Virus record (IMG/VR): IMGVR_UViG_3300027861_000011 | Span: 62,001 to 126,000 of that record | DNA from: a virus | Direction: 5' to 3' (one strand) | Length of the DNA stretch: 64,000 nt | Part shown: piece by piece, positions 2,760-21,169 of the stretch | Layout: every line of letters begins with the position of its first letter | Numbering within the stretch: position 1 is the stretch's first letter | Translations under genes and position numbers: made by a program | Notes under the pieces: model-generated | Database searches by the model: none | What the model was told of the DNA's origin: nothing | The model's input: only the letters and a program-made list of their open reading frames with translations

Positions 2760-3770
2760 ATGAATAATAAAAAAAAACGTTGTATCGTTATTTCTGGAGG
2801 TGGGGCAAAGGGAGCTTTTGCTGGTGGAATAGTTGAATATCTTACTTTAGTGGAGAAACGGGATTATGATATGTATGTTTCTTCCTCCACTGGAACATTA
2901 GTGCAATTACTATCATCAACTGGGGATATACAAAAATTAAAGGAGGGTTATACAACGGTCACTAATAAGGACATATGGAAGATAAATCCATTTAAAGTTA
3001 CCAACAATAAAAATGGTAAAATTAAAGCTGAGATAAATTGGTGGAGTGTTATTAAGAATTTATTACCAAGATATAGATTAAAAAAAAGTGAAGGTTTTCC
3101 TTGGGTTAATATTGTTAATACTAAGGTTTCTATTTCTTTTGGTGATTCAAGTAATCTACTTGGGTTGATTAAAAGATTTATGAGTCAAAAGGAATACCTT
3201 AGAGTTAAAGAAGAATTAAATAAAGAATTAATTGTTTGCGTTGTTAATGCAACTCTTAAGAAGGTTGAATATAAATCTTCTAACGATTGGGGTTATGATG
3301 ATTTCTGTGAATGGACACAAGCATCATGTAGTGCTTATCCATTTATGAGTCCAGTACTAAAAAATGAATATCAATATGTAGATGGTAGTATATTGGAGTC
3401 AACTCCAATTCAAGAAGCGATTAATAGAGGTGCTAAGGAAATCGATGTAATTATACTTAAAGAAGAGAACCCTAAATTCGAAGTAGAATATATAAGAAAT
3501 TTAATTCATGGTATACTTACTGAAATTGATATTATGCATAATGAGTTATCAAAGGGTTCTGTTCAAATAGCTAAATTAAAAGTTAAGGATGAGGAAATAA
3601 TACTTAATTTTTATTACACACCTAGAAAATTAACTAATAATAGTCTTGTATTTGATAAGGACATTATGACTGAGTGGTGGAAAGAAGGTTATGAATATGC
3701 TAAGACAAGGGAATTTAAATCATATAAGATAATTAAGGGTAGAAAAGCTAAGTTAATCAATAAGGTTTAG
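2760..3770 (+). CDS. patatin-like phospholipase family protein
   Basis: A 336-residue protein with the layout of patatin-like lipid acyl hydrolases. The N-terminus holds the oxyanion-loop motif GGGAKGAF (residues 13-20). The nucleophile elbow is expected around residues 41-45 and reads S-S-S-T-G, so the first Gly of the usual G-x-S-x-G is replaced by Ser while the Ser nucleophile candidate (about S43) is kept. The partner Asp sits in YVDGS near residue 208, matching the D-G-(G/A) motif. There is no signal peptide, so the protein is probably cytoplasmic. It sits alone between structural genes and is flanked by two antisense copies of a small gene, which suggests an accessory insertion. Activity against host lipids is an inference; the altered elbow leaves catalysis uncertain. 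Confidence 0.75.
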   Translation: MNNKKKRCIVISGGGAKGAFAGGIVEYLTLVEKRDYDMYVSSSTGTLVQLLSSTGDIQKLKEGYTTVTNKDIWKINPFKVTNNKNGKIKAEINWWSVIKNLLPRYRLKKSEGFPWVNIVNTKVSISFGDSSNLLGLIKRFMSQKEYLRVKEELNKELIVCVVNATLKKVEYKSSNDWGYDDFCEWTQASCSAYPFMSPVLKNEYQYVDGSILESTPIQEAINRGAKEIDVIILKEENPKFEVEYIRNLIHGILTEIDIMHNELSKGSVQIAKLKVKDEEIILNFYYTPRKLTNNSLVFDKDIMTEWWKEGYEYAKTREFKSYKIIKGRKAKLINKV

Positions 3771-4065: not shown

Positions 4066-6909
4066 ATGGCTGATAAAGTATTCGTGAGTCCTGGTGTGTA
4101 CACATCGGAAAATGACTTAACATTCGTAACACGTCAAGTTGGTGTAACTACACTTGGGCTTGTTGGAGAAACAACACAAGGACCAGCGTTCCAACCAATA
4201 TTCGTAAGTAATTACGATGAGTTCACATCATTCTTTGGTGGACAAAACGCAACAAAAATAAAAGATACAGGGGCACCTAAGTATGAATTACCATATATTG
4301 CTAAATCTTATCTATCACAATCAAACCAATTATACGTAAGTAGAGTTCTTGGTTTTTCTGGTTATGATGCTGGTTTATCTTGGGGTATTACGCTTGACGC
4401 TGCTTTAGATAGTTCAACAACTGGTGTAACTGGTGGAATTTCTTCTGCTTCTTTAATTGAATATACCGCAGATACCACTACTGGAGTACTTACAACTATT
4501 GTATCAAGTGACCCATTGGTTCAATCTCTTTGGGATGATGGACTACTTACAAGTGAATTAGCCTATTTAGGAACTGCTGCTACTGCTAGTACACCAACAA
4601 ATATTGGTGTTGTTTGGGATAAGACTGGTGACACATTTAGTGGTGCATCAATTTCACATTATGTAACTAATACAGGTACATTTGGTAGTTCAACAACTGG
4701 TGTTACGAGTGGTGTAACTGTTCATTATACTGGTACTGGGTATTCAGATACAGAAAATAAATTAGTTTCACTTTTAAGAAGTAGAGGTTCTTATGCTGGT
4801 GAGGAAGTAATTAACTTTGAAGTTACAGGTTCTACTGATATAGGATTTAGTTCTACATTAGTTGATGCTGAAACAAACGGTAAAGGTACTTTCGGTATTA
4901 CTGGAACATCAACTGCAAGTGGAGCATTTAGTTATTCATTATCATTTGATAAGACTAAAAAGAATTATCTTACTAGAGTACTTGGTAGATATGCTGATGA
5001 CGGTAAGACTGCATTATTCGTTGAAGAATTATTTGATGGGATGTTTGAAGATTTATACGATGCTGATAAAATTAGAGGTATAAATATTGATTCACTTATT
5101 GATTATGATAATGACTTCGATAATTATAGACAGGAATATCAACCAGCAGTAACTCCATGGGTTGTTTCTGAACTTAGAGGTACAAACCTTTTAAGACTTT
5201 TCAGACTCCATACAATTTCTGATGGTAATGCTGCTAATAGTCAATTTAAAATATCTATACAAAATATTAAAATAACAGATAAAGAATTTGATGTTGTTAT
5301 AAGGTCATACTATGATAGTGATGCTAAACCAGTTATTCTTGAGAGATTCTCAAGATGTGACATGAACCCAACATCTAAAAACTTCGTTGGTAAGAGAATC
5401 GGTACAACTTCTGGTGAATTTGCTTCTAAATCTAACTTTGTATTAGTTGAGTTGGAAGAGGAGTCAGATACTTCGGATTCGTTTCCAGCTGGATTCTTAG
5501 GATTCCCAGTTAGAGATTACCAAGCGTTTAACAATGTAACGGTACAAGACCCAACAATTGAATATAAACAAACATATGGTGAATTCGAGAACAAGCGTAA
5601 ATTCTATTTAGGTCTTTCTGCTACTAAAGGTATTGACCAGGATTTCTTTGATTATAAAGGTGTACCAGAAAATGATGAGTTAAGTATGTGGACTGGTTTA
5701 ACTAATGGTTTCCACATGGATAAAGATGCAACTGGAGCAACAATTGATAATGTTGAAATAATTATCAACAATACAGGTGGTACTTATTCTCCAATTTTCT
5801 TATTTGATGTAGGAAATGCTGAATTTAGAACTGAAGCTGATGTTCAAGGTACTGATTATGAAAAAGTTTATGCTAGAAAATTCACATTCGCACCTTATGG
5901 TGGTTATGATGGATGGGATATTTATAGAACTGAAAGAACAAATGACGATAAATACTTAATTAACGGTACTAAAGGTCAATTAGGTCTTTTGACTGGTTCA
6001 TTCTCTAATAGAGCACTTTCTAATGGTGATAATGGTATTAATTCAGATTATTATGCTTACTTAGAAGCAATTTGGACATTCCAAAATCCAGAAGCAACAA
6101 ATATTAACGTATTCGCTACTCCTGGTATTGATACATTTAATAATTCTAACTTAATAGAGGAAGCTATTGAAATGGTAGAGCAAGATAGAGCTGATTCGCT
6201 TTATATTGTAACTACACCAGATACAGATGCTTCTGGAGATGTACTTTTAGCTGAAGATGTGATTGACCAATTAGATGGTGAATTTGATTCTAACTATACA
6301 GCTACATACTGGCCTTGGATTCAAATTAATGATGCTGAGAATAATCTTTATATCTACGTTCCACCTACAAGAGATGTTGTAAGGAACATTGCACTTACAG
6401 ATAATATTTCTTTCCCATGGTTCGCAGTAGCGGGTGTGCAAAGAGGTGATGTTAATGCAATTAAAGCTAGAAAGAAACTTACACAAACTGAAAGAGATAC
6501 ACTTTACGATGGTAGAGTTAACCCAATCGCAACTTTCGCTTCAGAAGGTATTAAGATTTGGGGTAACAAAACACTTCAAGTTAAAGATACTGCTCTTAAT
6601 AGAATTAACGTTAGAAGACTTTTATTACAGTCAAGAAAACTTATTTCTGCTGTTTCTATTAGATTATTATTCGAGCAAAATGATGATATCGTAAGAAACC
6701 AATTCTTATCACTTGTTAATCCTATCTTAGATAATATTAGAAGTGAAAGAGGTCTTACAGATTTCAGAGTTGTTTTAGATAGTGACCCAGAATCAATAGA
6801 TAGAAACGAACTTTGTGGTAGAATATTCCTTAAACCAACAAGAGCGTTAGAGTTTATTTGTGTTGAGTTCAATATAATGAACACTGGAGCAAGCTTCGAT
6901 GATATTTAA
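4066..6909 (+). CDS. contractile tail sheath protein (T4 gp18 type)
   Basis: A 947-residue protein that begins MADKVFVSPGVYTSE, the classic opening of phage tail sheath proteins, followed by GLVGETTQGPAFQP and a typical N-terminal domain. The C-terminal part has the other sheath landmarks: WPWIQI and YVPPTRDVVRNIAL, a conserved helix-strand region with KIWGNKTLQ, and a closing segment on inter-subunit contacts (RRLLLQSRKLI). T4 gp18 has 659 residues; the extra length is mainly a Ser/Thr/Gly-rich insertion at about residues 110-270 with repeated SSTTGVT motifs, probably an outward-facing domain. It assembles around the tube and contracts at infection. Product identity is secure. Confidence 0.95.
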   Translation: MADKVFVSPGVYTSENDLTFVTRQVGVTTLGLVGETTQGPAFQPIFVSNYDEFTSFFGGQNATKIKDTGAPKYELPYIAKSYLSQSNQLYVSRVLGFSGYDAGLSWGITLDAALDSSTTGVTGGISSASLIEYTADTTTGVLTTIVSSDPLVQSLWDDGLLTSELAYLGTAATASTPTNIGVVWDKTGDTFSGASISHYVTNTGTFGSSTTGVTSGVTVHYTGTGYSDTENKLVSLLRSRGSYAGEEVINFEVTGSTDIGFSSTLVDAETNGKGTFGITGTSTASGAFSYSLSFDKTKKNYLTRVLGRYADDGKTALFVEELFDGMFEDLYDADKIRGINIDSLIDYDNDFDNYRQEYQPAVTPWVVSELRGTNLLRLFRLHTISDGNAANSQFKISIQNIKITDKEFDVVIRSYYDSDAKPVILERFSRCDMNPTSKNFVGKRIGTTSGEFASKSNFVLVELEEESDTSDSFPAGFLGFPVRDYQAFNNVTVQDPTIEYKQTYGEFENKRKFYLGLSATKGIDQDFFDYKGVPENDELSMWTGLTNGFHMDKDATGATIDNVEIIINNTGGTYSPIFLFDVGNAEFRTEADVQGTDYEKVYARKFTFAPYGGYDGWDIYRTERTNDDKYLINGTKGQLGLLTGSFSNRALSNGDNGINSDYYAYLEAIWTFQNPEATNINVFATPGIDTFNNSNLIEEAIEMVEQDRADSLYIVTTPDTDASGDVLLAEDVIDQLDGEFDSNYTATYWPWIQINDAENNLYIYVPPTRDVVRNIALTDNISFPWFAVAGVQRGDVNAIKARKKLTQTERDTLYDGRVNPIATFASEGIKIWGNKTLQVKDTALNRINVRRLLLQSRKLISAVSIRLLFEQNDDIVRNQFLSLVNPILDNIRSERGLTDFRVVLDSDPESIDRNELCGRIFLKPTRALEFICVEFNIMNTGASFDDI

Positions 6910-6992: not shown

Positions 6993-8105
6993 ATGGCTAA
7001 GAAACTAAAGATAAATGAGCAACAGTTAAGTGTTATCGTTGAATATATTAAAACAGGTGATGTAAAGCCTATTATAAAGGAAGAGCTATTAGAAGAGGGG
7101 AAATTAGCTAACTGGATGATGGCTGGTCTTGCTACATTAGCTAGTATGGGTGGTTCCGTACAAGCTCAAAGTGAAATAGATAATAGTGGTATTAATAATG
7201 TAGAAGCTTTAATATCGCAAGCACAAAAAGTTTCTAATGAATTAAAAAGTGATGGTGATAAGGCTAAATTATTTAGAGATGCGGCCAAAGAACTTAATAT
7301 TCAGAATATTGAAGATTTAAAACAAATAAACCCAAAAGATGATAAGATAATAAAATTATTTAAAACTAAAAATCTTAAGACTGCTGACAGTAAGGTAAAA
7401 CGAGGTGGGGTTGTAACGAGTATAGAGATTACTAGGGATACTACCTTTAGAGAGTTACCAGCACCGTTAATAGTTGATTCAACAATGGAAACTAATTTAA
7501 CTGGTAACTTATTTGTTACGGGTGCTTTTGACTTAAATGAAGATGTTGCTGAAGAATTAGCTACCTCATTAGAGGCAATTAAAATGCAAAATGGTACACT
7601 TAAAAATGTAAAGATTCATTCATCAACGGATAAAGAACCAATTAGTGATGAGTTATCAATAAGACTTGTTTCTGGTGGCTATACTGGTGATAATGAAGGT
7701 CTTTCTAAAGCTAGGAAAGATGGTATTTATAATTACTTAGTTAAAAAATTAGGAATAGATTCATCATTAATTAAATTAGATATACAATGGGAACAAGGTC
7801 CAGATGTATATTCATCATCAATGAGTAGTGCTGATAGAGCGTCAGCAAGAGATTTAGAAGGTACTAGTGAGGCTAGGGAAGTAGGTGTTACATGGGGTGC
7901 TACTTTTATAGTACAAGGTGATGACAATGATAAAGTTTATGATGTAACAGTTAGTGTATTAATTGGTATTAGTAGTGTTGAGACTCCACTTAAGGGTGGT
8001 TATAAACCAACTAAGAGTGGTAAAGGAAAAATGACAATTATGAAGATTGTTCCAGGTATGAAAAAATTGAAGTGTGATAATAAAAAATGTTTCTTCACTA
8101 ACTAA
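6993..8105 (+). CDS. OmpA-like domain protein, probably virion-associated
   Basis: A 370-residue protein. The N-terminus (MAKKLKINEQQLSVIVEY) resembles the repeated N-terminal motif of the 486-residue protein at 12683. A short hydrophobic stretch follows (MMAGLATLASMGGSVQA, about residues 42-58), like a misplaced signal or membrane segment. Residues about 170-320 resemble an OmpA-C peptidoglycan-binding fold: a V-x-I-x-S-S-T-D strand, LSKARKDGIYNYLVKKLGI, then a final strand. It is transcribed with the tail genes from its own late-like promoter. LEE-G at about residues 34-37 fits the (I/L)xE-(A/G) pattern of T4 gp21 protease sites, so processing inside a prohead is possible but unproven. Confidence 0.5.
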   Translation: MAKKLKINEQQLSVIVEYIKTGDVKPIIKEELLEEGKLANWMMAGLATLASMGGSVQAQSEIDNSGINNVEALISQAQKVSNELKSDGDKAKLFRDAAKELNIQNIEDLKQINPKDDKIIKLFKTKNLKTADSKVKRGGVVTSIEITRDTTFRELPAPLIVDSTMETNLTGNLFVTGAFDLNEDVAEELATSLEAIKMQNGTLKNVKIHSSTDKEPISDELSIRLVSGGYTGDNEGLSKARKDGIYNYLVKKLGIDSSLIKLDIQWEQGPDVYSSSMSSADRASARDLEGTSEAREVGVTWGATFIVQGDDNDKVYDVTVSVLIGISSVETPLKGGYKPTKSGKGKMTIMKIVPGMKKLKCDNKKCFFTN

Positions 8106-8811: not shown

Positions 8812-10422
8812 TTACATTATTTTTTCATAAGTTATAGTACCACAATCATAAATTCTATAAATTTGTCGTTTAAGCATTATTTCATGTTCCGTTAATTTAG
8901 AGTCATAGCCATCACTAATTAGTATATCTTTTCTATATTTAAATCTATGTTCTCTCTTATTGTCAATTATGTAAAAATAATTAGGTTTTGAATTATTCAT
9001 ATACTTGAAATCTAATTTATCATATAAATTACCAGTGGACCATCTTCTGTCAGCGTAACTTATTATTCTAGTTGGGGTATATGTTTTAATAAAATATTTA
9101 AGTAATTTACTAGCACCACCTGTAACAGTTGTATTTAATTTATTACAGAACCTAATTAATTCATAATTATTATCTTTATGGTTCAACCCTAATACCTTCC
9201 TTAAATTACTAAAAGTCATTATGCTAACTAATTCATCATCGTAATATAGACCTATATTATATTTACTACCAACAGCACCTTGTATATGATTTTCATTAAG
9301 GAATATAGTTTTATCTTTTGTTTTAACTTCTTTTATCTCACATTTTCTACCATATATCCTTTCATCAGTTAACCCAAGTAAATTTTTAAGTCTTGATTTA
9401 ACTATATCTTGTTTATATAACCATTCATCTTCAAATATATGAATTAATTTAACATTAATATTATTACATAGTTCTGTTTTATTTAAATGATAACCATTAT
9501 CAACATACTTTTCAGAATGCCAATAAAGACCGTTAAACTCAATAGCTATATTTTTATCTGGAATATAAATATCTAACTCAAGAGGTGTGATAATATCTCT
9601 GGTATTACTTATTAAGTTTATACCAAGAGAGCTTATAAAATCAAAAACTTCAAGCTCACTTATAGATACCCCACTTTTTTTGGGGTGACATATCGTACAA
9701 GGGTTAGTTGTTATTTGGTATCTATGATATAGTACATTTCTGTTAATACTGTAATTATTATTACATAAACCACATTTTATTATAATATCATCTTTTATTA
9801 TATCTATTATATCTAACTCTTTATATTTTATAATAAAATCATTTTTTTTCTTATCATAACCTTTAACTCTATTCTTATTTATTAGTAATGGACTTGATAC
9901 ACCATACTTAGTAATATTAGTTTTTCGTATCTTATCCTTGACTGATGGTAATTTACTTATATGATTAATACCATGTTTATCAATAGTTTTTTCTTTGATA
10001 TATTCAGTATCCTTAAATATATTATCAACACCATATTTATTCAATGTAGTTTTCTTTATTTTATCTTTTACATCATCTGAATGTGATGGTGATACCCCAC
10101 CATATTTTTTTATATTAGTTTCCTTTACTAAATTAATATGTTTATCACTTTTATTAGTACAAGATATCGAGCAATATGTACCATAACCTTCTCTAAGTGA
10201 TTTTTTAAAGTTTAATTTAGTACCACATTCACATTGTGGTATGGAATTAATATCGTTAATATAATGCCATATTTTAACTTTAAATTGTATCGTAGATAAC
10301 TCACCATTACAGTAGTTAATAATACTATTATATAAGTTAATGTTATTATTGATAAGCCATTTTTCTCTAGTTCTATGACCAGATTTATTATCATCTATAA
10401 AATATTTTATTAAATTATTCAT
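8812..10422 (-). CDS. homing endonuclease-like protein (Vsr/EDxHD-type nuclease with zinc fingers)
   Basis: A 536-residue protein. The N-terminal part has a zinc-finger-like cluster (CECGTKLNF ... YGTYCSISC). About residues 95-190 carry four repeats with KYGV, KYGG or KHGI cores, typical of DNA-reading modules in phage homing nucleases. A second Cys cluster (CGLC ... CTIC) comes next. The nuclease core follows at about residues 255-345: ISELEVFDFI, then LELDIYIPDKNIAIEFNGLY and WHSE, and HIFEDEW, the pattern of Vsr-like nucleases. The C-terminal 190 residues form a further domain often found joined to these proteins. It is antisense between two tail genes, as expected for an inserted selfish gene. 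No intron or split gene is seen next to it, so it looks free-standing. Confidence 0.75.
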   Translation of the reverse strand: MNNLIKYFIDDNKSGHRTREKWLINNNINLYNSIINYCNGELSTIQFKVKIWHYINDINSIPQCECGTKLNFKKSLREGYGTYCSISCTNKSDKHINLVKETNIKKYGGVSPSHSDDVKDKIKKTTLNKYGVDNIFKDTEYIKEKTIDKHGINHISKLPSVKDKIRKTNITKYGVSSPLLINKNRVKGYDKKKNDFIIKYKELDIIDIIKDDIIIKCGLCNNNYSINRNVLYHRYQITTNPCTICHPKKSGVSISELEVFDFISSLGINLISNTRDIITPLELDIYIPDKNIAIEFNGLYWHSEKYVDNGYHLNKTELCNNINVKLIHIFEDEWLYKQDIVKSRLKNLLGLTDERIYGRKCEIKEVKTKDKTIFLNENHIQGAVGSKYNIGLYYDDELVSIMTFSNLRKVLGLNHKDNNYELIRFCNKLNTTVTGGASKLLKYFIKTYTPTRIISYADRRWSTGNLYDKLDFKYMNNSKPNYFYIIDNKREHRFKYRKDILISDGYDSKLTEHEIMLKRQIYRIYDCGTITYEKIM

Positions 10423-10517: not shown

Positions 10518-11006
10518 ATGGCTGATTTATTAATGAAAATGCCTGTTCCTTACGAACCAAAGAAGAAGAACAGATGGCTTTTAAGATTCCCAGCGGATTT
10601 AGGAATTCAAGAGTGGTGGTTAGCGTCTGCTTCAAGACCATCTATAACACAAAATGAGGTTGAGATACCTTTCCTTAACACATCTACATGGGTAATTGGT
10701 AGATTTACATGGGAATCTATTTCAGTAACATTTAGAGACCCTATTGGACCTTCTGCTGCACAAGCAATTATGGAGTGGGTTAGACTTCAATCAGAGTCAA
10801 TTACAGGAAGACAAGGTTATGCAGCTGGATATAAGAAAGATGTAGAGCTTGAAATGCTTGACCCAACTGGTGTTGTGATTGAGAAGTGGGTACTACAAGG
10901 TACAATGCTTACAAATGTTAACTTCGGTGATTTATCAATGGATGATGATGCGATAGCTGATATCACTGCTGATTTAAGATTCGATAGAGCAATATTACTA
11001 TTTTAG
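10518..11006 (+). CDS. tail tube protein (T4 gp19 type)
   Basis: A 162-residue protein, matching the size of T4 gp19 (163 residues). It forms the stacked hexameric rings of the inner tail tube. The family pattern is visible: KKNRWLLRFP near the start, ASRPSITQNEVEIPFLN with the conserved aromatic-polar loop, TWESISVTFRDPIGPSAAQ, and a final LSMDDDAIADITADLRFD strand followed by the hydrophobic C-terminus. It sits downstream of the sheath gene, from which it is separated by the OmpA-like gene and the antisense CAP/homing endonuclease insertion. The usual sheath-tube pair has thus been split. Strong late expression is expected from its own promoter and terminator. Confidence 0.93.
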   Translation: MADLLMKMPVPYEPKKKNRWLLRFPADLGIQEWWLASASRPSITQNEVEIPFLNTSTWVIGRFTWESISVTFRDPIGPSAAQAIMEWVRLQSESITGRQGYAAGYKKDVELEMLDPTGVVIEKWVLQGTMLTNVNFGDLSMDDDAIADITADLRFDRAILLF

Positions 11007-11205: not shown

Positions 11206-12372
11206 ATGAGTAATAAAAAACCAAGTGTATTTCCTACGCAAGACCAAATTTCTTATGCTAATGAAACTGGTGAATTAATTTCAAATCAGTTAGAGGAAGA
11301 AAATGTTGTACAGTCAACATCTGGAAGTGATGCTGAAGCAATGGCTGCCGCTGAAATGAAAAAAAGAACTGATGACCAATTAAGGATGAGAGAAGAGAAT
11401 CTTAAAAAGAATGAAGAGATTTCTAGACAGATAGATAATAAAAGAGAGAATCAGATGAGTGAGAAACAACCTTATAATTGGGATAAAGAATCTAAAGAGC
11501 TTCCAACAGAAGGTAATAATAATAATAATCATAATTACTATGGTGGTAATGGTAATGACGGTGGTAATAATAATAATACAGGTATGAATAGTGAACAACC
11601 AAAAAGTAATCATAATGTTTATATTGAACAATTAAGTAAACCTCAAATGAATCAACCATTTGACCTTATTCCTTTACCATCTGAAGGTAAAATGTATCCA
11701 GGAGTTAAAAAGAATATTAAAGTTGCATTTCTTACAACTGCTGATGAAAATATTCTTACATCTCCTAATCTAGTTGAGAGTGGTGAGTTTTTAGAAATAC
11801 TTATTAATAGAAAATTACTTGAACCAAATTTAAGATATAGAGATTTATTACCAGGTGATAGAGATGCTATTATGATTTGGCTTAGAGCAACTGGTTATGG
11901 TGAAATGTATCCAGTTACATTATATGATAATAAAAATGAAACATTCGATACTGAAGTTAATCTTTCAGAATTAAAAACTATTAATCTTAATGTTAATCCA
12001 GGTACTGATGGTTTGTTTGATTTTGAGTTACCATTATCTAAGAATAAGCTTAAACTTAAATTACTTACAGTTGGTGATGTAGAGGATTTACAAGAAATTG
12101 TTAAAGAAAATGAAGATAATCTAATTAATGAAGAACAAACACTTATACTTGAGAATCGAATTGTTTCGGTTAATGGTAATAAGGATAGAATATTTATTAA
12201 AGAATTTGCGGCTAATATGAGGGTTATTGACGCACAAAAATTAAGAGAATTTATGTCTAAAATAGAATGTGGCGTTGATATGACAATCGAGGTTAGGTCT
12301 CCTGGGGGTGAGACCATAAAAACGTTTCTTCCCCTTACAACAAAGTTTTTTTGGCCTAACTCAGAGTTATAA
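11206..12372 (+). CDS. tail assembly chaperone / T4_baseplate (gp26-like) protein, zero-frame product
   Basis: A 388-residue protein. The first 150 residues are charged and low in complexity, including an Asn-rich tract (about residues 104-124). The folded part begins at PFDLIPLPSEGKMYPG, the LPS-x-G-x-x-Y signature of the T4 baseplate hub assembly (gp26-type) family, and continues with AFLTTADENILTSPNL, RDLLPGDRDAIMIWLRAT and LKLLTVGDVEDLQ. It lies between the tube and tape measure genes, where tail assembly chaperones are usually encoded. Near its 3' end, codons TTT-TTT-T (12346-12352) form a T7 run after which another frame stays open to 12625. A longer fused product is therefore likely; see the next entries. 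Confidence 0.65.
   Translation: MSNKKPSVFPTQDQISYANETGELISNQLEEENVVQSTSGSDAEAMAAAEMKKRTDDQLRMREENLKKNEEISRQIDNKRENQMSEKQPYNWDKESKELPTEGNNNNNHNYYGGNGNDGGNNNNTGMNSEQPKSNHNVYIEQLSKPQMNQPFDLIPLPSEGKMYPGVKKNIKVAFLTTADENILTSPNLVESGEFLEILINRKLLEPNLRYRDLLPGDRDAIMIWLRATGYGEMYPVTLYDNKNETFDTEVNLSELKTINLNVNPGTDGLFDFELPLSKNKLKLKLLTVGDVEDLQEIVKENEDNLINEEQTLILENRIVSVNGNKDRIFIKEFAANMRVIDAQKLREFMSKIECGVDMTIEVRSPGGETIKTFLPLTTKFFWPNSEL
12346..12352 (+). promoter_or_regulatory. probable programmed frameshift site (T7 run)
   Basis: Seven T residues lie in phase as TTT TTT T in the zero frame, followed by GGC. Zero-frame reading gives FFWPNSEL and stops at 12370-12372. A +1 slip (or -2) gives FFGLTQSYKEKLLEEIYVC and continues in frame into the gene at 12419 without a stop. 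A -1 slip ends at once (TAA 12357-12359). tRNA-Phe could re-pair perfectly after either slip. A one-base error in the T run would also explain the break. Confidence 0.6.
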
Positions 12373-12625
12373 AGAAAAACTATTAGAAGAAATATATGTT
12401 TGCATTAAACATTTAGGTATGACTTATCAAGATGTTTTAGCAGCACCGACTTATGAGAGACGTTTCTTTCTTTTATCTTTTATTAATGAAGGGGAAAAGA
12501 AAAAACAGAAATACGAAGAAGAAAGAGATGCGGCTACTAATAGTAATGCTAAAGGGAGTAGAACCACAAGAGTGAGTGGTGACCAATTAAAATCAAAATT
12601 AAAGAGTGGAGAGATACCTGGCTAA
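12353..12625 (+). CDS. downstream (shifted-frame) part of the tail chaperone gene
   Basis: The shifted frame is open from the T run to TAA 12623-12625 and gives 90 residues: GLTQSYKEKLLEEIYVCIKH, LGMTYQDVLAAPTYERRFFL, then a charged tail ending KLKSGEIPG. The EEIY ... MTYQDVL ... PTYERRFF pattern resembles the short second part of tail assembly or baseplate chaperones in T4-like phages. Its coding character runs through the stretch before the first ATG (12419), so the biologically relevant start is probably the frameshift rather than that ATG. Translation from 12419 alone would give a 68-residue protein. The fused product would have about 472 residues. Confidence 0.6.
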   Translation, partial: GLTQSYKEKLLEEIYVCIKHLGMTYQDVLAAPTYERRFFLLSFINEGEKKKQKYEEERDAATNSNAKGSRTTRVSGDQLKSKLKSGEIPG

Positions 12626-12645
12626 TTATTTAGTTAGGTATTTTT
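12614..12645 (+). terminator. intrinsic terminator
   Basis: ATACCTGGCTAA (12614-12625) pairs with TTAGTTAGGTAT (12630-12641), including two G-T pairs, around TTAT, followed by a T5 tract. The left arm overlaps the preceding stop codon. Confidence 0.75.
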
Positions 12646-12657
12646 CGTTCTAGGAGA

Positions 12658-12671
12658 TATTTATATATAAA
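12658..12671 (+). promoter_or_regulatory. late-like promoter motif
   Basis: TATTTATATATAAA, identical to the motifs at 6971 and 16973, begins 25 bases before the ATG at 12683. Confidence 0.65.
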
Positions 12672-12682
12672 ACAATCTTAAT

Positions 12683-12838
12683 ATGAAGGTAGTAATCAAT
12701 GAATCGCAGTATAATAAACTATTTAATAAAACTAAAACTAAGTTAGTAATAGATGAATCTCAATATAATAGACTTTTTAATAAGACTAAAACTAAGTTAG
12801 TAATAACTGAAAGTCAGTTCAATACCCTTATGGTTGAG
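12683..12838 (+). repeat. tandem repeat coding the N-terminal motif (about 2.5 copies of a 63-base unit)
   Basis: The unit encodes K(V/L)VI(N/D/T)ESQ(Y/F)N followed by LFNKTKTK. Copies start near 12686, 12740 and 12803. The AATAARACTAAAACTAAGTT segment is conserved at base level between the first two junctions. Confidence 0.6.
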
Positions 12839-14143
12839 GCTGAGATATCAAAATCACTAAAAAATGTTAAAACAGGTGATTTATTACAAATAACTAAAGA
12901 AAATGGTAGCGTATATCATTTTAAGGTTGTTGAATCTGTTATGGGTGGTTCAATTTATATGGTTAGTACTGATAATGGAACTTTAAAAGGTTTCTATATT
13001 CTTATAAATGGTGCTACTAGTTTTCAAAATAAAGAATTAAGATATCAATTTAAAAAAATAGATGAAATAGAAGACGAATCTAAAATATATAAGGAATCCC
13101 CTAGTTGGAAATTTTCAACTATTAAAGCTATAACAAAATTTGAAGTGTTTAATTCAAATCAATCCCCTAAATTTAATGTTGATATTAAAACGGGTGAACC
13201 TAAAAAACCTAAAGAAGAGAAAGAAAAATTTAAAGGTAGTGAGTCTACACCAGAAAAAGAAGAGTTAATGAAGTATTTAATGAATATGACAGAGGGTAAG
13301 GATTACACTTTTAAGTTAAAAAATGGTAAAGAATTAGCTTTTAATGTTCAGACTGTTGAGCTTAAGAATATTGGTATGGAATTAATGAGTGCTGATGGTG
13401 ATTATAGTTTTGATGTTGGTAAAACTTTTAATCTAGAAGTTAAGAATGAAAATATTTTTTTTAAAAGTGATGGTGATTATGATATTCAATTAACAATGTA
13501 TTTAGGTGGTGAAGAAGAAGGTGCTGATGTAATTGATTCTAAGAGTAAAAAGGTAGAAATTAAAGGTATTTATGATATTGAAGAAAAGGGTGTTAATAAG
13601 GAAGAAGAAGAAGATGATACCTTTGATTATGAAGAATTAAAGGCTAGAATGGAAGATGACCAAGTATTAAAAGATATTATTCAAACAAGACCAAGTGCTG
13701 CATTAGAACTTATTCGTGTGTCTAGGAAATTGGGAGTTATACCAGCAAGTGATAGACTTGCTAAATGGGGGTTAGGCGTTAATAATGATACACTTAGTTA
13801 CAATGGTAAGAAATTCTTAGCTAATAAAAAATTAATAATAAAATTTATTGGTGATGGAAAGATAAAAGATACTAAAAATCAAGAAATATTAAATGATTTT
13901 AAAAATAAATTATTATCAAAAAATAGTGAGGTTGGTGTTAAGGTTGCACCATATAGACAGGGTGATAAACATACAACATTAAATGGTGGAATTGATAAAT
14001 TAGTATATAAATTAGAAGTTCAAAGTGAAGTGGAGGATAAAAAAGATACTTATATAGTTAATGTAAAGTTAACTAATAAAGATACTAAAGTACCATTTAT
14101 ATTAGCTTCTTATGAAATAAAAGTTGAGAATTATAACGCATAA
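12683..14143 (+). CDS. protein with three N-terminal ESQ(Y/F)N repeats, probably virion-associated, unknown function
   Basis: A 486-residue, Lys- and Glu-rich protein. Residues 1-52 are nearly three tandem copies of a 21-residue unit with cores VVINESQYNKLFNKTKTK, LVIDESQYNRLFNKTKTK and LVITESQFNTLM. The next part (about 55-180) looks like a small beta domain, followed by a charged linker (KKPKEEKEKFKGSE) and a second beta-rich region. Residues about 320-385 include RPSAALELIRVSRKLGV. No enzyme motif was recognised. Its position just before the tape measure and its late-like promoter suggest a virion or assembly role. The INEQQ start of the protein at 6993 resembles one repeat unit. Confidence 0.55.
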   Translation: MKVVINESQYNKLFNKTKTKLVIDESQYNRLFNKTKTKLVITESQFNTLMVEAEISKSLKNVKTGDLLQITKENGSVYHFKVVESVMGGSIYMVSTDNGTLKGFYILINGATSFQNKELRYQFKKIDEIEDESKIYKESPSWKFSTIKAITKFEVFNSNQSPKFNVDIKTGEPKKPKEEKEKFKGSESTPEKEELMKYLMNMTEGKDYTFKLKNGKELAFNVQTVELKNIGMELMSADGDYSFDVGKTFNLEVKNENIFFKSDGDYDIQLTMYLGGEEEGADVIDSKSKKVEIKGIYDIEEKGVNKEEEEDDTFDYEELKARMEDDQVLKDIIQTRPSAALELIRVSRKLGVIPASDRLAKWGLGVNNDTLSYNGKKFLANKKLIIKFIGDGKIKDTKNQEILNDFKNKLLSKNSEVGVKVAPYRQGDKHTTLNGGIDKLVYKLEVQSEVEDKKDTYIVNVKLTNKDTKVPFILASYEIKVENYNA

Positions 14144-14163: not shown

Positions 14164-16689
14164 ATGGCGAAGGAAGATGACATGAAGAACATATGGGATG
14201 GAATGAAAGCGGAGCAGCGTAAGATTAATGCTGCCGCTAAAGAGCTTGAAAAAGGACTTGGTAAGCAAGTCGAGATGCAACGTGATATCCTTAGAACTAA
14301 ACAAGACATTGCACATATAGCTAAGAAAAATGCAGTAATTGAAGAGCAATTAGCAGAAGACTTAAAAGAAAGAAAAGTTTTACAAGATAAAATGTTAGTA
14401 GCTCAACAAAATGGTGATAAGAAGGCTAAAAAGGCTGCACATGATAGACTTATATTACTTAGAAAAGAAATTAAATTAAAAAAAGAAAGTTTAGGAGTAG
14501 GTAAAGAAGAATTAAAAGACGCTGAAAAAGGTCTTGAATTAATGCAAAAAAGCGTTAAACAAAGTAATTTACTTAAGTCTAGTGCTAGGTCAGTAGGTAA
14601 GGCTATGAAGACTTGGGGTTGGGATAAACTTAAGTCTTGGGGTGTGTTTGAAATGGATAAAGCTATCCGTGATAGTGCTAAAAGTATGGGTGTTGGCGCT
14701 AAGGGTTTTGAATCTTTCTCTAGTAGTATAAGTGTTGCTTCTGAGAAAACTATAATGATGGGTGCTGGGATAAAGGACTTAGCTAAAATGCAAGGTGGTT
14801 ACAGTAAGGAGATTGGGAGGTCAGTTCGATTAACTGAAGAAGGTATGATAGCTATGGCTGAAATGGCTGAAGGTACTGGTCTTGGTGCGGAATATGCTAT
14901 AGGTATGGCTGCTGGTATGGATGATTTTGGTGCTAGTGTTGAAACATCAAGAGATTTAGTACAGGAAACTCTTGATATTTCTGGTGAAATGGGGGTTAAT
15001 AGTGCAGCAGCTGCTGAAGGTCTTAAAAAGAGTCTTAAATTAGCTCAAAGGTTCCACTTTAAGGGTGGTGTAAAAGGACTTGCTAAAATGGCTAACGAGG
15101 CCGCTAGACTTAAGTTAGATATGGATGGTATTGCTGGTCTTGCTGAAAAGGTGTTTAGACCAGAGGGAGCTGTTGAAATGGCAGCTAAGTTACAAACTAT
15201 GGGTGGAGCGTTTGCTCAAATGGCTGACCCTATGCAATTAATGTTTAAAGCTAGAAATGATTTTGAAGGATTTTCTAAAGATATTGGTAAGGCTACATCT
15301 GAATTTGTTGAATTTAATAAAGAACAGGGTATATTTGAGGTTAAAGGTGGTTTAGCTGCGGATAGAATGAGGGAGATATCAACTATTACTGGTATTGGTG
15401 TTGAAAAGTTACAAGAAATGGCTGTTCAACAAAAGAAAATTGAAGCTATTGGTTCTATATCACCATTTAATTTTGATAAAGATGAAAAAGCATTAGTGGC
15501 TGGTATGGCTGATATGAAGGATGGTGAATGGCAAGTTAGTATTGATGGTCATGCTAAACTAGTTAAAGATTTAAATAATAATGATTTGAAAAAACTTAGA
15601 TTAGAACAACAAAATCTTGATGAGAGAGCTGAACAATCTAGAACATTTCAAGATGTAATGATGGATGTATGGGAACAAATACAAAGTATTTTATTACCAT
15701 TCGCTCAAGCACTTAAGAAAAATCTTGGTGGGCCAATACAAGATTTTATTAAAACGTTATCTGATGGTGGTAAAGATAGTTTTATTGGTAGTATTAAGTC
15801 GTGGGTTAAATCAATTGCTGAATTAGTTACTAGTGTAGGTAAATGGATTATGGATAACCCTATAAAAAGTGTATTAGCTGTTGCGTTATTTAAAACGGCT
15901 GGGTGGATAGCTAATGGTTTAGCTTTAGCTACTGGATTTAACTTAGGTGCTAGAATGGGTGGTGGTATGGGTATGGGTCGTGGTATGACGGGGCCTGGTG
16001 CTGGGTTTGGTGCAGCAAGGTCTAGAGCTGGAATTACAAGAGGTGTTAATGGACAAATGGTTAGAGGTAGACCAGGTATGAGTACTGGTGCAAAAATGGG
16101 AGCTGGTCTAGGATTAGGTATAGCTGGGATGGGCTTAGATTATGCTAGAAGCACTATGGATGACCAAGAAAGTAGAGGTGCTAAGGCTTTAGGTGTTGGT
16201 TCTTCTGCATTGACGGGCGCAGCATTTGGTATGATGTTAGGGCCTGTTGGTGCTTTAGTTGGTGGTTTAGCTGGAGCTGCTTATGGTGCTTTTAAGGAAT
16301 ATGGTGGGGGCGATGGTTTTGAAGAAACAGATAATACTACTGCTGATATGAGTTCATTATATAGTAAAACTAGTGAAGTTAACGATGCTATTATAAAGTT
16401 TAACCCAAGAGATAAGTTCACAACAGTTAACGATGCGATTATAGCTTCAACAAGTCAGAATCAATTAAATACTGCCACTAAAAAACTTACTGGAGGTGAT
16501 AGTAATAGTGAAACTAAAGTTAAGATTGATGATGTTAAGGCTGATTTTAACTTTAACTTTAATGGTATTGATAATGAAATAGGTAAAATGTTATTAGCTA
16601 ATAACCAATGGGTAAATAAATTAAATACAGTACTACATGAAGTTAGTAGGACTTCTTTATCATATAAATTAAGTCCACAACCTATATAA
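14164..16689 (+). CDS. tail tape measure protein (T4 gp29-like role)
   Basis: An 841-residue protein. Residues 1-145 are strongly charged, helical and coiled-coil-like. A long helical region follows with Gly/Ala/Met-rich segments such as MAEMAEGTGLGAEYAIGMAA. A hydrophobic stretch near residues 555-585 (NPIKSVLAVALFKTAGWIAN) leads into a Gly/Met-rich segment (ARMGGGMGMGRGMTGPG) and a glycine-zipper-like stretch (AAFGMMLGPVGALVGGLAGA). This mix of long helices and membrane-active glycine-rich segments is typical of tape measure proteins, which set tail length and help DNA entry. It sits after the tube and chaperone-like genes, as expected. No peptidase or lysozyme motif was seen within it. Confidence 0.7.
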   Translation: MAKEDDMKNIWDGMKAEQRKINAAAKELEKGLGKQVEMQRDILRTKQDIAHIAKKNAVIEEQLAEDLKERKVLQDKMLVAQQNGDKKAKKAAHDRLILLRKEIKLKKESLGVGKEELKDAEKGLELMQKSVKQSNLLKSSARSVGKAMKTWGWDKLKSWGVFEMDKAIRDSAKSMGVGAKGFESFSSSISVASEKTIMMGAGIKDLAKMQGGYSKEIGRSVRLTEEGMIAMAEMAEGTGLGAEYAIGMAAGMDDFGASVETSRDLVQETLDISGEMGVNSAAAAEGLKKSLKLAQRFHFKGGVKGLAKMANEAARLKLDMDGIAGLAEKVFRPEGAVEMAAKLQTMGGAFAQMADPMQLMFKARNDFEGFSKDIGKATSEFVEFNKEQGIFEVKGGLAADRMREISTITGIGVEKLQEMAVQQKKIEAIGSISPFNFDKDEKALVAGMADMKDGEWQVSIDGHAKLVKDLNNNDLKKLRLEQQNLDERAEQSRTFQDVMMDVWEQIQSILLPFAQALKKNLGGPIQDFIKTLSDGGKDSFIGSIKSWVKSIAELVTSVGKWIMDNPIKSVLAVALFKTAGWIANGLALATGFNLGARMGGGMGMGRGMTGPGAGFGAARSRAGITRGVNGQMVRGRPGMSTGAKMGAGLGLGIAGMGLDYARSTMDDQESRGAKALGVGSSALTGAAFGMMLGPVGALVGGLAGAAYGAFKEYGGGDGFEETDNTTADMSSLYSKTSEVNDAIIKFNPRDKFTTVNDAIIASTSQNQLNTATKKLTGGDSNSETKVKIDDVKADFNFNFNGIDNEIGKMLLANNQWVNKLNTVLHEVSRTSLSYKLSPQPI

Positions 16690-16996: not shown

Positions 16997-19900
16997 ATGC
17001 CAAATTCTATAAATTCGTTATCACCAGATTTAAGAGATTATTTACTAAATAGAAATATTATTAGTGATACTATAACTTCTAGTGGTTTAGATACTCTTCT
17101 TCAAGGTATTGGTATACCTTCAGAAATTAGCCATTCCCCAGAATCTGTACAACCATCAGAGAATATTGAGGTTGATGGTGTATTCTATAAAGATTTAAAT
17201 GTAATCATAAATAAATACCAAGGTTCTGATGATGATTATGAAAAAGTAAGTATAAATTATTTACCAGGTAACACTAACTCAACATGGGCTGGTATTCCTT
17301 TTAATCATGAGTCATATAAACCTGGTGTAGCACAGTTATTCGATTATACAGAGACTAATGTTCCAGCTAATGGACCATTCCAAGGTGGGAACATTAGAGA
17401 ATTTAATACAACTAAGAACAATTTTTTAGATGTAAGTAAACAAACTAAGATAGATTTTAATACTCAACCTGTTCCATCGTATCAAATTGGTTCTTATTTA
17501 GATGAATATGGAGCACTTAATGTAGGTGGTGCTGATACTCAAACATTAGATGTTCTTGGTAGTATTTTAAATGGTGGTGGTGTAGGTTTTGACCCTAATG
17601 GGGGTGGAGTTGTTCCAGATTTTGATGTTAGGTCTTCATTAGTTGGTAGAGCTCTTAACGCTGGTGGTGCAATCAATGATACAAAATTAGGTACATTAGC
17701 TGTTAAGTATTTAGCAGCATCAATTGGTAATAGTGTCGCAATGAATCTTCAAGAGGAAACAATTGGTAGAATAAACCTTAATCCATTAAGTCTTTTAAAA
17801 GGAAATAATATTATAGTTCCAAATTATAATATTACGGTAGCTAAAGGTACACTAGGTAAGATTTTAGATTTAGGTGAAAGAATGCTTGGTTTTGAAACGC
17901 CAGTTAGTCTTTTAGGGCCAGGCTCATCAATATTTAGTAAAGAAAACCCAGTAGGAAATATTGAGAGAGCTCAATCAATGATTTTAAATACTGGTAAAGG
18001 GCAAGTATTAGCTCTTATAGCTAGTCTTGACCAAAACTTATATAAACCACAAATATCAGATGATAGAAAGAAAGAAGGAACAGCACCAACTGGTGAAGAT
18101 GGTACAAATGGTACTCTTTATGCTTTTAACAATGGTGATGGTGGTGTAGTTGATTTATTAAATAGTTCAAATATAGAAGGAGTTACCCCAGCATTTTTAC
18201 CAAATGGATTACCAGACCCTACTTTTATAGCTCAAGTTTCTAACGCTGGTGCTTTCGAATCTGAACATGGTAAGATAACAAGTGAGTTAAATGGTGGATT
18301 TAATGATGAATTTGGTAATTTAACGCATGCTAATTCAAGAAATGATAGTGAAGCTAAATTTATGTGGGCTGATAAAGGAAGTAATAAAACTAACTCTGAA
18401 GGTGCTAGTACGGGTCTTCAAGCATTTGAAGATTTAGGTGTTAAGAAAAGTTTACTAAGTAAAACAAAAGAATTATTTAATAGTAATAAAATGAGAACAC
18501 TTACCTCTGGTCATTATGTTAAAGATGAGAAAATTAGTGAAATTCAAAGTGGTATGCATACCAAATTTTCTGCATCTGGTAAACTATCAAAAGGTAGTGG
18601 TGTATTATCTAAAGGGGTATTAAAAGGTACTGCAACTGATGGTGATAAAATATTTTGTAGAACATGGTCAACATATGATAAATACTCTAGTGTTAATGAT
18701 TTAGTAAGACATAGTGGTTTAAAAAAGAATTTAATGATAAATCCACACGCTAATGTTGATGCATCTGTTTTAGATAAACAAGGATTTCCTCAAATAGGAC
18801 CATATAATGATAGAGTTAATACATCAGTAGATGCTAACGGTAAAAAAGTAAACGTTGAGAATTATATGTTCTCAATTGAGAACTTAGCTTGGTATGGTTC
18901 AGATATGATGAGCTTTTTACCAGATTGTGAAATAGGTCCTGGTGACCCAGTAACAGGTCGTAATGGTAGAATAATGTGGTTCCCACCATATGACATTTCA
19001 TTTAATGAAACAACATCAGTTAGTTTAGAAAGAAATAATTTTATAGGTAGAGGTGAGCCAATATATACATATAATAATACTGAAAGAATGGGAACACTTT
19101 CATGGAAGATTATTATTGACCACCCTAATTATATGAATTTTTTCCCAGAAAATTGGGGTGATAATGAAATAGCTTCATTTTATGCTGGATGTTTAGAAGA
19201 TGAAAAAATAGTAAGAAAAGTATTTACTAGTAATGAAAGAAATGAAATTGAATTAGCCGAGAAACCAATTGTTAAAGAAGTTGTAGATGAAGCTGAACCT
19301 GGAGAACTCACATTTATTGTATATTTTAAAAATGATACGACAGATATATCTACATTATATGAAAATGGTAAAAGAAATAATGCTCCAGACGGAGACCCAA
19401 ATGGTTACATTGAAGATACCGATATAATGGGTTGTTATAAATCAAAACTTAATGATGAAGGAACTGCTTTAGAATGTATTGCTGGATATGGTTTAGGTAC
19501 AACAATAGGTGAAGGTATTGTTGGTTCAAAAGGTAAAGTATATAATGATTTAACTAATTTTGGTCTTAATGGTCAAGACCAACCAATATCATTTAAAGGT
19601 AAAACTCACAGAGGTTGGATGGATGATGATTTTCTCCCAAACTTAAGTGACTATATTTCTAATGAATGTAAATATTGTAAAATAACAATTGAAGGTTATG
19701 CTAGTTCCCAAGGCGCTTCATCTAAGAATCAAAAACTTTCACAAAAAAGAGCTGATAATGTTAAATCTTGGTTAATTAGTAATGTAGTACCTAAAAATGA
19801 TACTGTTAGTCCTGAAAAAAGAGTTGTAATTTCAGAACCAACTGGTAAAGGTGAAACTGAAACTGGATGTACTGGTGAAGGTGGTCAAGATAGAGGAGCT

Positions 19901-21169
19901 TGTAAATTAGGTAGAAAGACAATAGTTACAATTAAATATGATGCTGACTTAAAACCAGCACCACCACCACCAGTAGTAGATAAGAAAGTAGAACCCCCTA
20001 TTCAAAGTAAACAAAATCTTGCGATGAACCCTAGTAGATTCTTTTCTGAATGTGATTATTTCACAAGATTAGAAGAAACATCACCAATAGTATATGATGA
20101 GATTAAAAGAAAAATCCCTTACTTTCACCCTAGTTTTCACTCTACAACACCAGAAGGATTTAATTCTAGACTTACATTCTTACAACAATGCACAAGGCAA
20201 GGACCAACACTTTCATCTGATAAAAGTAACCCAAGTAATTTAGCATTTGGTAGACCACCAGTATGTATACTTAGAATTGGTGATTTTTATCACACAAAAA
20301 TAATGATGGAGAGTCTTACAATAGATTATGACCCACTTGTATGGGATTTAAATCCAGAAGGTGTTGGTGTACAACCAATGATTGCTAATGTTACAGTTAG
20401 TTTCGTATTTATTGGTGGGTCAAGTCTTAAAGGTCCAATTAATAAATTACAAAATGCAGTATCATTCAATTACTTTGCTAATACCGAATTATATGATGTT
20501 AGAGCAGACGTTGTTAAAGAAGATGGTACTGTCGGGAATTATATTAATGAAGCTGCTGAAAGTGAAAAACAAAAAGATAAAAATACAGAACCAATTGTTG
20601 AAGACCAAGAAGTGGTTGCTAAGGAAATAGTTGAAGAAGAACCACCAGAACCAGAAGAAAGTGATGCTGTTAAAGCATTAAAAAACGCTCAGTTGAATGG
20701 ATGGACTGATGATGATAGTGGACTTGTTACAGTGGGAGTTTGGACTGATGGAGCATTTAATGATAAAGACTGGAATTACAATATCACAGTATTTCAAAAT
20801 AACCAAAGAGTTAAAATAGATACAGGTACACTTGATTTGGAAAAATTCGATGATGATAATAGATTTGAAATAGTTGTATCTAAATTAACAAGAAGTTTTG
20901 TTGGTAAAGTAACTCGTGAAGTAGATACTGGTCGTAAATATAGTAAATATGGTCCTAACTGTTTTAGTGCTAGTACAGACACAGTTATAGTTGATGAGAT
21001 ACCCATCGGAGTTGAATTTTGGAAAGATGGTGAAGAAACAATTCAACGTGGTTTAGCTCCTTATGTGTTAGGATGTGATGATTTAGATAATGAGCAAACT
21101 AGAGGTGATTTAGTTCCTGGTACAGATAACGCTGTATTTAATTTAATGCGATGTATAAGTTGTCCTTAA
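16997..21169 (+). CDS. large baseplate or tail structural protein with an embedded OmpA-like domain
   Basis: A 1390-residue protein in three parts. Residues 1-770 include a phage structural region near 640-730 (MWFPPYDISFNETTSVSLER, then GRGEPIYTYNNTERMGTLSW). Residues about 770-985 form an OmpA-C-like domain: FIVYFKNDTTDI, CKITIEGYASSQG, NQKLSQKRADNVKSWL and a final RKTIVTIKYD strand, the pattern that binds peptidoglycan in OmpA-like proteins. After a Pro-rich linker (PAPPPPVVD) the structural part resumes with VCILRIGDFYHTKIMMESLT, typical of tail or baseplate proteins with LysM-like neighbours. It is followed closely by the gp53-like and hub genes. A role at the baseplate, with the OmpA-like domain touching the cell wall, is an inference. 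Confidence 0.65.
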   Translation: MPNSINSLSPDLRDYLLNRNIISDTITSSGLDTLLQGIGIPSEISHSPESVQPSENIEVDGVFYKDLNVIINKYQGSDDDYEKVSINYLPGNTNSTWAGIPFNHESYKPGVAQLFDYTETNVPANGPFQGGNIREFNTTKNNFLDVSKQTKIDFNTQPVPSYQIGSYLDEYGALNVGGADTQTLDVLGSILNGGGVGFDPNGGGVVPDFDVRSSLVGRALNAGGAINDTKLGTLAVKYLAASIGNSVAMNLQEETIGRINLNPLSLLKGNNIIVPNYNITVAKGTLGKILDLGERMLGFETPVSLLGPGSSIFSKENPVGNIERAQSMILNTGKGQVLALIASLDQNLYKPQISDDRKKEGTAPTGEDGTNGTLYAFNNGDGGVVDLLNSSNIEGVTPAFLPNGLPDPTFIAQVSNAGAFESEHGKITSELNGGFNDEFGNLTHANSRNDSEAKFMWADKGSNKTNSEGASTGLQAFEDLGVKKSLLSKTKELFNSNKMRTLTSGHYVKDEKISEIQSGMHTKFSASGKLSKGSGVLSKGVLKGTATDGDKIFCRTWSTYDKYSSVNDLVRHSGLKKNLMINPHANVDASVLDKQGFPQIGPYNDRVNTSVDANGKKVNVENYMFSIENLAWYGSDMMSFLPDCEIGPGDPVTGRNGRIMWFPPYDISFNETTSVSLERNNFIGRGEPIYTYNNTERMGTLSWKIIIDHPNYMNFFPENWGDNEIASFYAGCLEDEKIVRKVFTSNERNEIELAEKPIVKEVVDEAEPGELTFIVYFKNDTTDISTLYENGKRNNAPDGDPNGYIEDTDIMGCYKSKLNDEGTALECIAGYGLGTTIGEGIVGSKGKVYNDLTNFGLNGQDQPISFKGKTHRGWMDDDFLPNLSDYISNECKYCKITIEGYASSQGASSKNQKLSQKRADNVKSWLISNVVPKNDTVSPEKRVVISEPTGKGETETGCTGEGGQDRGACKLGRKTIVTIKYDADLKPAPPPPVVDKKVEPPIQSKQNLAMNPSRFFSECDYFTRLEETSPIVYDEIKRKIPYFHPSFHSTTPEGFNSRLTFLQQCTRQGPTLSSDKSNPSNLAFGRPPVCILRIGDFYHTKIMMESLTIDYDPLVWDLNPEGVGVQPMIANVTVSFVFIGGSSLKGPINKLQNAVSFNYFANTELYDVRADVVKEDGTVGNYINEAAESEKQKDKNTEPIVEDQEVVAKEIVEEEPPEPEESDAVKALKNAQLNGWTDDDSGLVTVGVWTDGAFNDKDWNYNITVFQNNQRVKIDTGTLDLEKFDDDNRFEIVVSKLTRSFVGKVTREVDTGRKYSKYGPNCFSASTDTVIVDEIPIGVEFWKDGEETIQRGLAPYVLGCDDLDNEQTRGDLVPGTDNAVFNLMRCISCP

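Follow-up and report, generated by a model that had tools for sequence, protein, structure and literature searches.

Frameshifted tail assembly chaperones are a known kind of phage protein, with T4 as an exception (PMC5009743; for lambda, Xu, Hendrix and Duda 2004). In lambda, the G/GT gene is located between the tube and tape-measure genes, it gives rise to a short form and a C-terminally extended form, and a conserved slippery site lies near its 3' end. Regarding the T4-like phages, PMC12846349, citing Vladimirov et al. 2022, reports -1 poly-T sites, and PMC10274946, citing Vladimirov, Gautam and Davidson 2022, describes some phages as having a short gene together with a longer, fused one. 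Here we describe a gene in a 64,000-nucleotide stretch of viral DNA (the window), taken from a virus record of 193,838 bases, that has the same position, the same short and extended layout and likewise a conserved slippery site near its 3' end; lambda is compared by layout only. This is very probably a T4-like tail chaperone gene with a +1 programmed ribosomal slip that produces short and long forms. A sequence-only reading of the window had proposed that a T4-like phage uses frameshifting at this gene; the general idea holds, and it had already been published, as a -1 shift, in the first of these two papers.

The window includes the tail region of a T4-like phage. The tail sheath gene (gp18-like; 4066..6909, plus strand) served as the syntenic anchor and was recognized by its tblastn matches to gp18 in 2,581 phage records. 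On the same strand, the tail tube gene (gp19-like; 10518..11006; phrog_4542 tail tube, E 4e-28) is directly upstream of the chaperone gene, which begins at 11206, and a probable tape-measure gene (14164..16689, plus strand) is downstream; the latter matches phrog_28, tail length tape measure, at E 1.2e-4, and the gene order is that of the isolates. The chaperone gene is therefore positioned between the tube and tape-measure genes.

Several other features of this region may be mentioned. An ORF of no known family (12683-14143, 486 aa) separates the chaperone gene from the tape-measure gene; it has no significant Pfam or PHROG match and starts with three near-copies of a (V/I)xxESQ(Y/F)Nx(L/F) motif. 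The intergenic stretch 12628-12677, just past the chaperone gene, has copies that are 78-86% identical at C1:167530 and C1:160585 of the same phage record, and it is possibly a promoter or a terminator that is repeated. An ORF on the minus strand amid the tail genes (8812-10422) has DUF7487, Mom-like and weak MTES_1575 endonuclease-like matches; it may be a mobile gene, or one for DNA modification, that has inserted among the tail genes. Two tail-region proteins have OmpA-like domain matches; that of 6993-8105 is below the curated cutoff, and that of 16997-21169 is in a 1390-aa protein encoded after the tape measure. No tRNA genes were found in the window.

The zero frame of the chaperone gene (11206..12372, plus strand) encodes a 388-aa protein, the predicted short form (TAC-N, T4 gp26-like), in which a low-complexity N-terminal extension precedes a conserved core (about 11620-12369). 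Database matches and a structure model support its assignment as a T4 gp26-type tail assembly chaperone of the PF12322/phrog_150 family. The protein matches phrog_150, 'baseplate hub', at E 6e-9, and all 36 aligned relatives match PF12322 (T4_baseplate) at E <= 0.01 (best 6e-12); the window protein's own PF12322 score, 23.3 bits, is slightly below the 24.5 cutoff. The core was modelled by AlphaFold with a pLDDT of 88, and a Foldseek search with this model returned the SP-15 baseplate hub subunit (E 5.5e-18) and Gp26 of Aeromonas phage 25 (E 6.5e-4). Sequence and fold searches of solved structures gave no meaningful match. The tie to T4 is made through PF12322 and the folds because single-sequence alignments to gp26 and gp51 were not significant. 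The chaperone identity proposed from the letters is thus backed by the family matches, by the Foldseek hits to T4-type baseplate hub proteins and by the gene order.

Near its 3' end the gene is read in two frames. A run of seven T (12346-12352) is read in the zero frame as the codons TTT TTT TGG (12346..12354, plus strand), after which this frame ends ...TTK FFWPNSEL* with the stop codon at 12370-12372. From 12353 the +1 frame reads GLTQSYKEKLLEEIY...PTYERRFF...GEIPG* and is open to 12625, and the -1 frame stops immediately past the run. The +1 frame encodes a 90-aa C-terminal extension (TAC-C, T-like domain; 12353..12625, plus strand), which would be part of the long form only (about 472 aa). 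The rest of the zero-frame tail, WPNSEL*, is read in both frames (overlap 12353..12372, plus strand). The sequence-only reading had described the sequence and its coordinates exactly, and its two-frame interpretation of the gene agrees with what follows: the layout is far beyond chance, and the relatives keep the same relative frame.

As a single-sequence query, the 388-aa protein found no matches among the viral contigs, and the relatives were obtained via the sheath protein first and then by a profile search. The relatives from viral contigs span about 77% down to 30% identity, and the layout is kept throughout with one clear exception. In the first set (n = 38 covering the junction, 40-77% protein identity), the extension is in the +1 frame in all and the site is TTT TTT TGG in all; tblastn found the downstream frame to be homologous in the relatives, in the same relative frame each time. 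The profile search added 80 loci, with the extension in the +1 frame in 77 of the 77 that had a readable junction. A scan for the exact DNA pattern led to 117 loci that were read, and in every one of these the zero frame meets a stop within 12 codons. In 113 of them the +1 frame stays open for at least 60 codons, and in the other four it runs into the end of the contig; no locus has 60 open codons in the -1 frame (0/117). These three sets overlap. The homologues with the same two-frame layout that the sequence-only reading had asked for are therefore present at 38 of 38, 77 of 77 readable and 117 of 117 pattern loci, and two overlapping frames are conserved with an invariant slippery site, as in the lambda G/GT type.

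Homopolymer indels are common artefacts, and the reading from the letters had kept as an alternative that a sequencing or assembly indel in the T run splits a gene that is truly one continuous frame. That candidate was tried and rejected: at least 120 contig stretches have exactly seven T, none in the pattern scan has six or eight, and the same layout occurs at interrupted runs. We consider its probability to be practically nil.

Among more distant loci covered by a third scan, the +1 frame is the sole long alternative frame in 62 of 70; seven are ambiguous by length, one of which (L298) shows homology in the +1 frame when read by eye, and one is the exception (L293), where the C-terminal domain is in an ATG-started ORF of its own in another frame. 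The latter locus (3150-3520) belongs to a close relative of Flavobacterium phage immuto, its domain ORF lies directly past the stop of the short form, and from its sequence it is a possible split version of the chaperone gene. The layout is also kept in isolates infecting Flavobacterium, Microcystis, Bacillus and Listeria (Mel-JY01, immuto, LIS04 and SP-15). A search of the phage records by tblastn with the 90-aa extension gave no matches. The genome collection contained one distant relative, located in a Bacteroidaceae MAG and lacking a clear frameshift extension, and no DUF6760 match was found there.

The separate ORF in L293 brings up the possibility that the downstream ORF is translated from its own start, without a fusion; a separate protein is possible at least there, and the chaperone gene of Mel-JY01 is annotated as two overlapping CDS, both 'hypothetical proteins'. 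However, only seven of 65 non-redundant relatives have an in-frame ATG between the preceding stop and the junction, at no fixed position, so that the downstream ORF does not have the conserved ATG of its own that would have spoken against the sequence-only reading. In addition, the conserved coding region starts at the run, and the bases of the shift site are conserved beyond what the amino acids require. Separate translation thus has only a very slight chance of being the general explanation.

The pattern of changes between the relatives indicates that purifying selection switches frame at the T run. Upstream of the run, 50% of the changes fall at zero-frame third positions; downstream, the third positions of the +1 frame take 64% of the changes in the overlap, where selection follows the +1 frame, and 56% beyond it. 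Synonymous constraint per column is strongest beside the shift site.

The run is not always of seven T, and this bears on how the two frames could be joined. A tree of 87 representatives has the sites TTT TTT TGG, TTT TTT CGN, TTT CTT TGG and TTC TTT TGG in clustered lineages, and nearly all relatives have TGG or CGN as the A-site codon, which would make YUU_YGN the best reading of the usual site from the sequences. The site is all-U in the window, as had been noted, but an all-U site is not a requirement. There are also outliers, such as a degenerate shift site in one relative (L165) and the TTT TTT AGT of Listeria phage LIS04, an exception to the site rule at which the slip would be needed one codon earlier. 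Transcriptional slippage, in which some mRNAs would have six U and so join both parts in one frame, fits the seven-T run of the window and of many relatives, since homopolymer slippage yields the correct frame. Seven T is short for efficient polymerase slippage, and the same layout occurs in relatives with T3-C-T3, T4 or T6 runs; because their runs are interrupted, slippage on a homopolymer transcript is ruled out as the common cause, and we regard it as very improbable.

We infer instead that the slip is ribosomal, and its direction has to be taken from the relatives, since the +1 and -2 shifts give one and the same frame in the window and both are chemically possible on seven U. Programmed -2 frameshifting on the U-rich site would add the same C-terminal domain with one extra Phe; it has precedents in arteriviruses and in phage Mu, for which a -2 shift is reported in the tail chaperone. 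TTT TTT TGG and TTT TTT CGN would let the P-site tRNA-Phe re-pair on UUU two bases back, and the first codon is TTT, not TTC, in nearly all relatives, as a -2 shift needs. However, four relatives (L300-L303) have TTC TTT TGG, where -2 puts tRNA-Phe on UCU and +1 keeps it from UUU to UUU, and a huge-phage record (LR756508) has TTT CTA TTC, where the only good fit is UUU_C slipping +1 to UUC. A -2 shift fails at both of these sites, and a switch of mechanism within a lineage could reconcile it with them. In addition, CTT_U is found more than once, in lineages that are separate from each other; CUU_U is the classic +1 form (PMC10274946), and the PRFect authors note that, after CUU, UUU is one of the codons most prone to +1 slippage (PMC10274946). 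The frame proposed as '+1 or -2' is therefore correct, and +1 is the likelier direction because some relatives have sites that are unusable for -2; this choice rests on the relatives and on the logic of re-pairing, and a -2 shift is unlikely.

With +1 slippage as the preferred reading, the events would be as follows. Most ribosomes would reach the zero-frame stop and produce the 388-aa short form. A minority would slip +1 while the peptidyl-tRNA is on the second Phe codon of TTT TTT TGG, the P-site tRNA re-pairing from UUU (12349-12351) to the overlapping UUU (12350-12352), and translation would then enter the 90-aa helical domain and end with the long form. If the two forms act as in lambda G/GT, the tape-measure protein would presumably be coated by the short form and linked to the tube subunits by the long form. 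The two directions predict different products: at the window site, +1 would give the tryptic junction peptide FFGLTQSYK and -2 would give FFFGLTQSYK; in immuto, +1 at CUU would give ...GVSFLGLTPEYR, +1 at the first UUU ...GVSFFGLTPEYR and -2 ...GVSFLFGLTPEYR. At least two cultured phages, immuto and Mel-JY01, have the layout, and so the prediction is directly testable.

Some of the codons upstream of the site are more constrained than their amino acids would require and look like cis-acting signals; from their sequences we consider them to be candidate stimulators. In the TTTTTTTGG lineage the candidate is the upstream element TTT CTT CCC (12325..12333, plus strand), proposed on the basis of codon constraint. 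Its Leu codon is CTT in 58 of 58 versus a background of 23%, few codons of the gene are under stronger synonymous constraint than its Leu and Pro codons, and unusual TCC and CCC codons occur 13-36 nt upstream of the site. In the CGN lineage, of the 20 codons that precede the site, a Gly codon 9 nt upstream is the most constrained and is GGG in 50 of 55. The constrained sequence is thus a GGGG in this lineage, 9 nt ahead of the TTT, and a pyrimidine-rich element in the lineage of the window.

RNA structure contributes less to this picture. In the window, GGGGGTGAGA and TTTCTTCCCC could pair as a hairpin just upstream of the shift site (12304..12334, plus strand), where the MFE over -60..0 is -14.9 kcal/mol. 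Compared with synonymous recodings, the excess is modest (z -0.87 +/- 0.13), and own and swapped partners barely differ; the folding energy gives the hairpin weak support, it is poorly supported across relatives, and we do not claim it. RNAalifold returned 0 kcal/mol for all regions, with or without T-to-U conversion, and was uninformative on downstream structure.

The extension itself is predicted to form four helices, with a pLDDT of about 95 over residues 11-50, and in its sequence it weakly but consistently resembles DUF6760 (PF20546). Seventeen of 20 members match PF20546 at E <= 0.1 (best E 1.6e-5); the window extension scores 20.1 bits, below the curated cutoff of 27, and is the sole PF20546-like match in the whole phage record. 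Only the analogy with lambda T suggests that it would link the tape measure to the tube subunits.

How, then, does this gene compare with the systems that have been described? Lambda-type sites are -1, and a -1 shift at an X_XXY_YYZ heptamer is not what the window has; its extension is in the +1 (= -2) frame, and the window group would shift +1 at YUU_YGN, where the A-site codon is a sense codon. The bacterial prfB (RF2) gene likewise shifts +1, with a YUU codon moving onto the overlapping UUU (CUU_U in some relatives of the window), and its Shine-Dalgarno-like element lies close upstream of the shift site. However, the A-site codon of prfB is a stop codon, accompanied by this Shine-Dalgarno-like stimulator (PMC10274946), whereas the A site here holds no stop codon and in the window group is UGG or CGN. 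The tail chaperone of the archaeal virus HSTV-2, where +1 was called 'very likely', and the capsid and tail genes of Listeria phage PSA are also reported or likely +1 cases, although PSA slips at CCC in structural proteins and HSTV-2 is a single archaeal case; both are compared by description only (PMC5009743). In the literature surveyed, +1 shifts in tail assembly genes are rare. With its sense A-site codon, its conservation and its hundreds of natural variants, a +1 site of this kind would amount to a natural experiment on the forward slippage of bacterial ribosomes.

The sequences tentatively suggest, with somewhat less than even chances, that there is a widespread phage +1 class: YUU_YGN with a sense A-site codon and lineage-specific upstream stimulators, retained by T4-like phages whose hosts are Bacteroidota, Cyanobacteria and Firmicutes, alongside -1 (cyanophage) and two-gene (T4) relatives. 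If so, its candidate stimulators would be the pyrimidine tract 13-21 nt upstream in one lineage and the GGGG 9 nt upstream in another. The long form is absent from the current annotations of Mel-JY01, immuto and LIS04, and the last two records do not show the +1 extension as a fusion.

The nearest comparisons are within the chaperone family itself. T4 gp26 and gp51 belong to PF12322, as does the family of the window protein, but T4 makes its short and long forms from two genes (26 and 51), whereas the window phage would use one gene and a frameshift. Work by Vladimirov et al. in 2022 is said to have identified gp26 and gp51 as the short and long tail assembly chaperones. Gp51 is longer than gp26, and its extra C-terminal stretch aligns with the +1-frame domain (hhalign E 0.055), a homology that is only suggestive. 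The gp26-like gene of Prochlorococcus phage Syn33 (L178, record 5760-6607) likewise encodes a phrog_150 protein whose C-terminal part follows in a different frame close to a T run; unlike in the window, this frame is -1 and the site is a canonical T_TTT_TTC. Judging from these sites, the direction of the shift differs within one chaperone family, and the window group appears to be a +1 variant of a known frameshift device that had been reported in T4-like phages as -1. To make few long and many short chaperones, one family would then have arrived at three solutions: a -1 shift in cyanophage, two genes in T4 and a +1 shift here.
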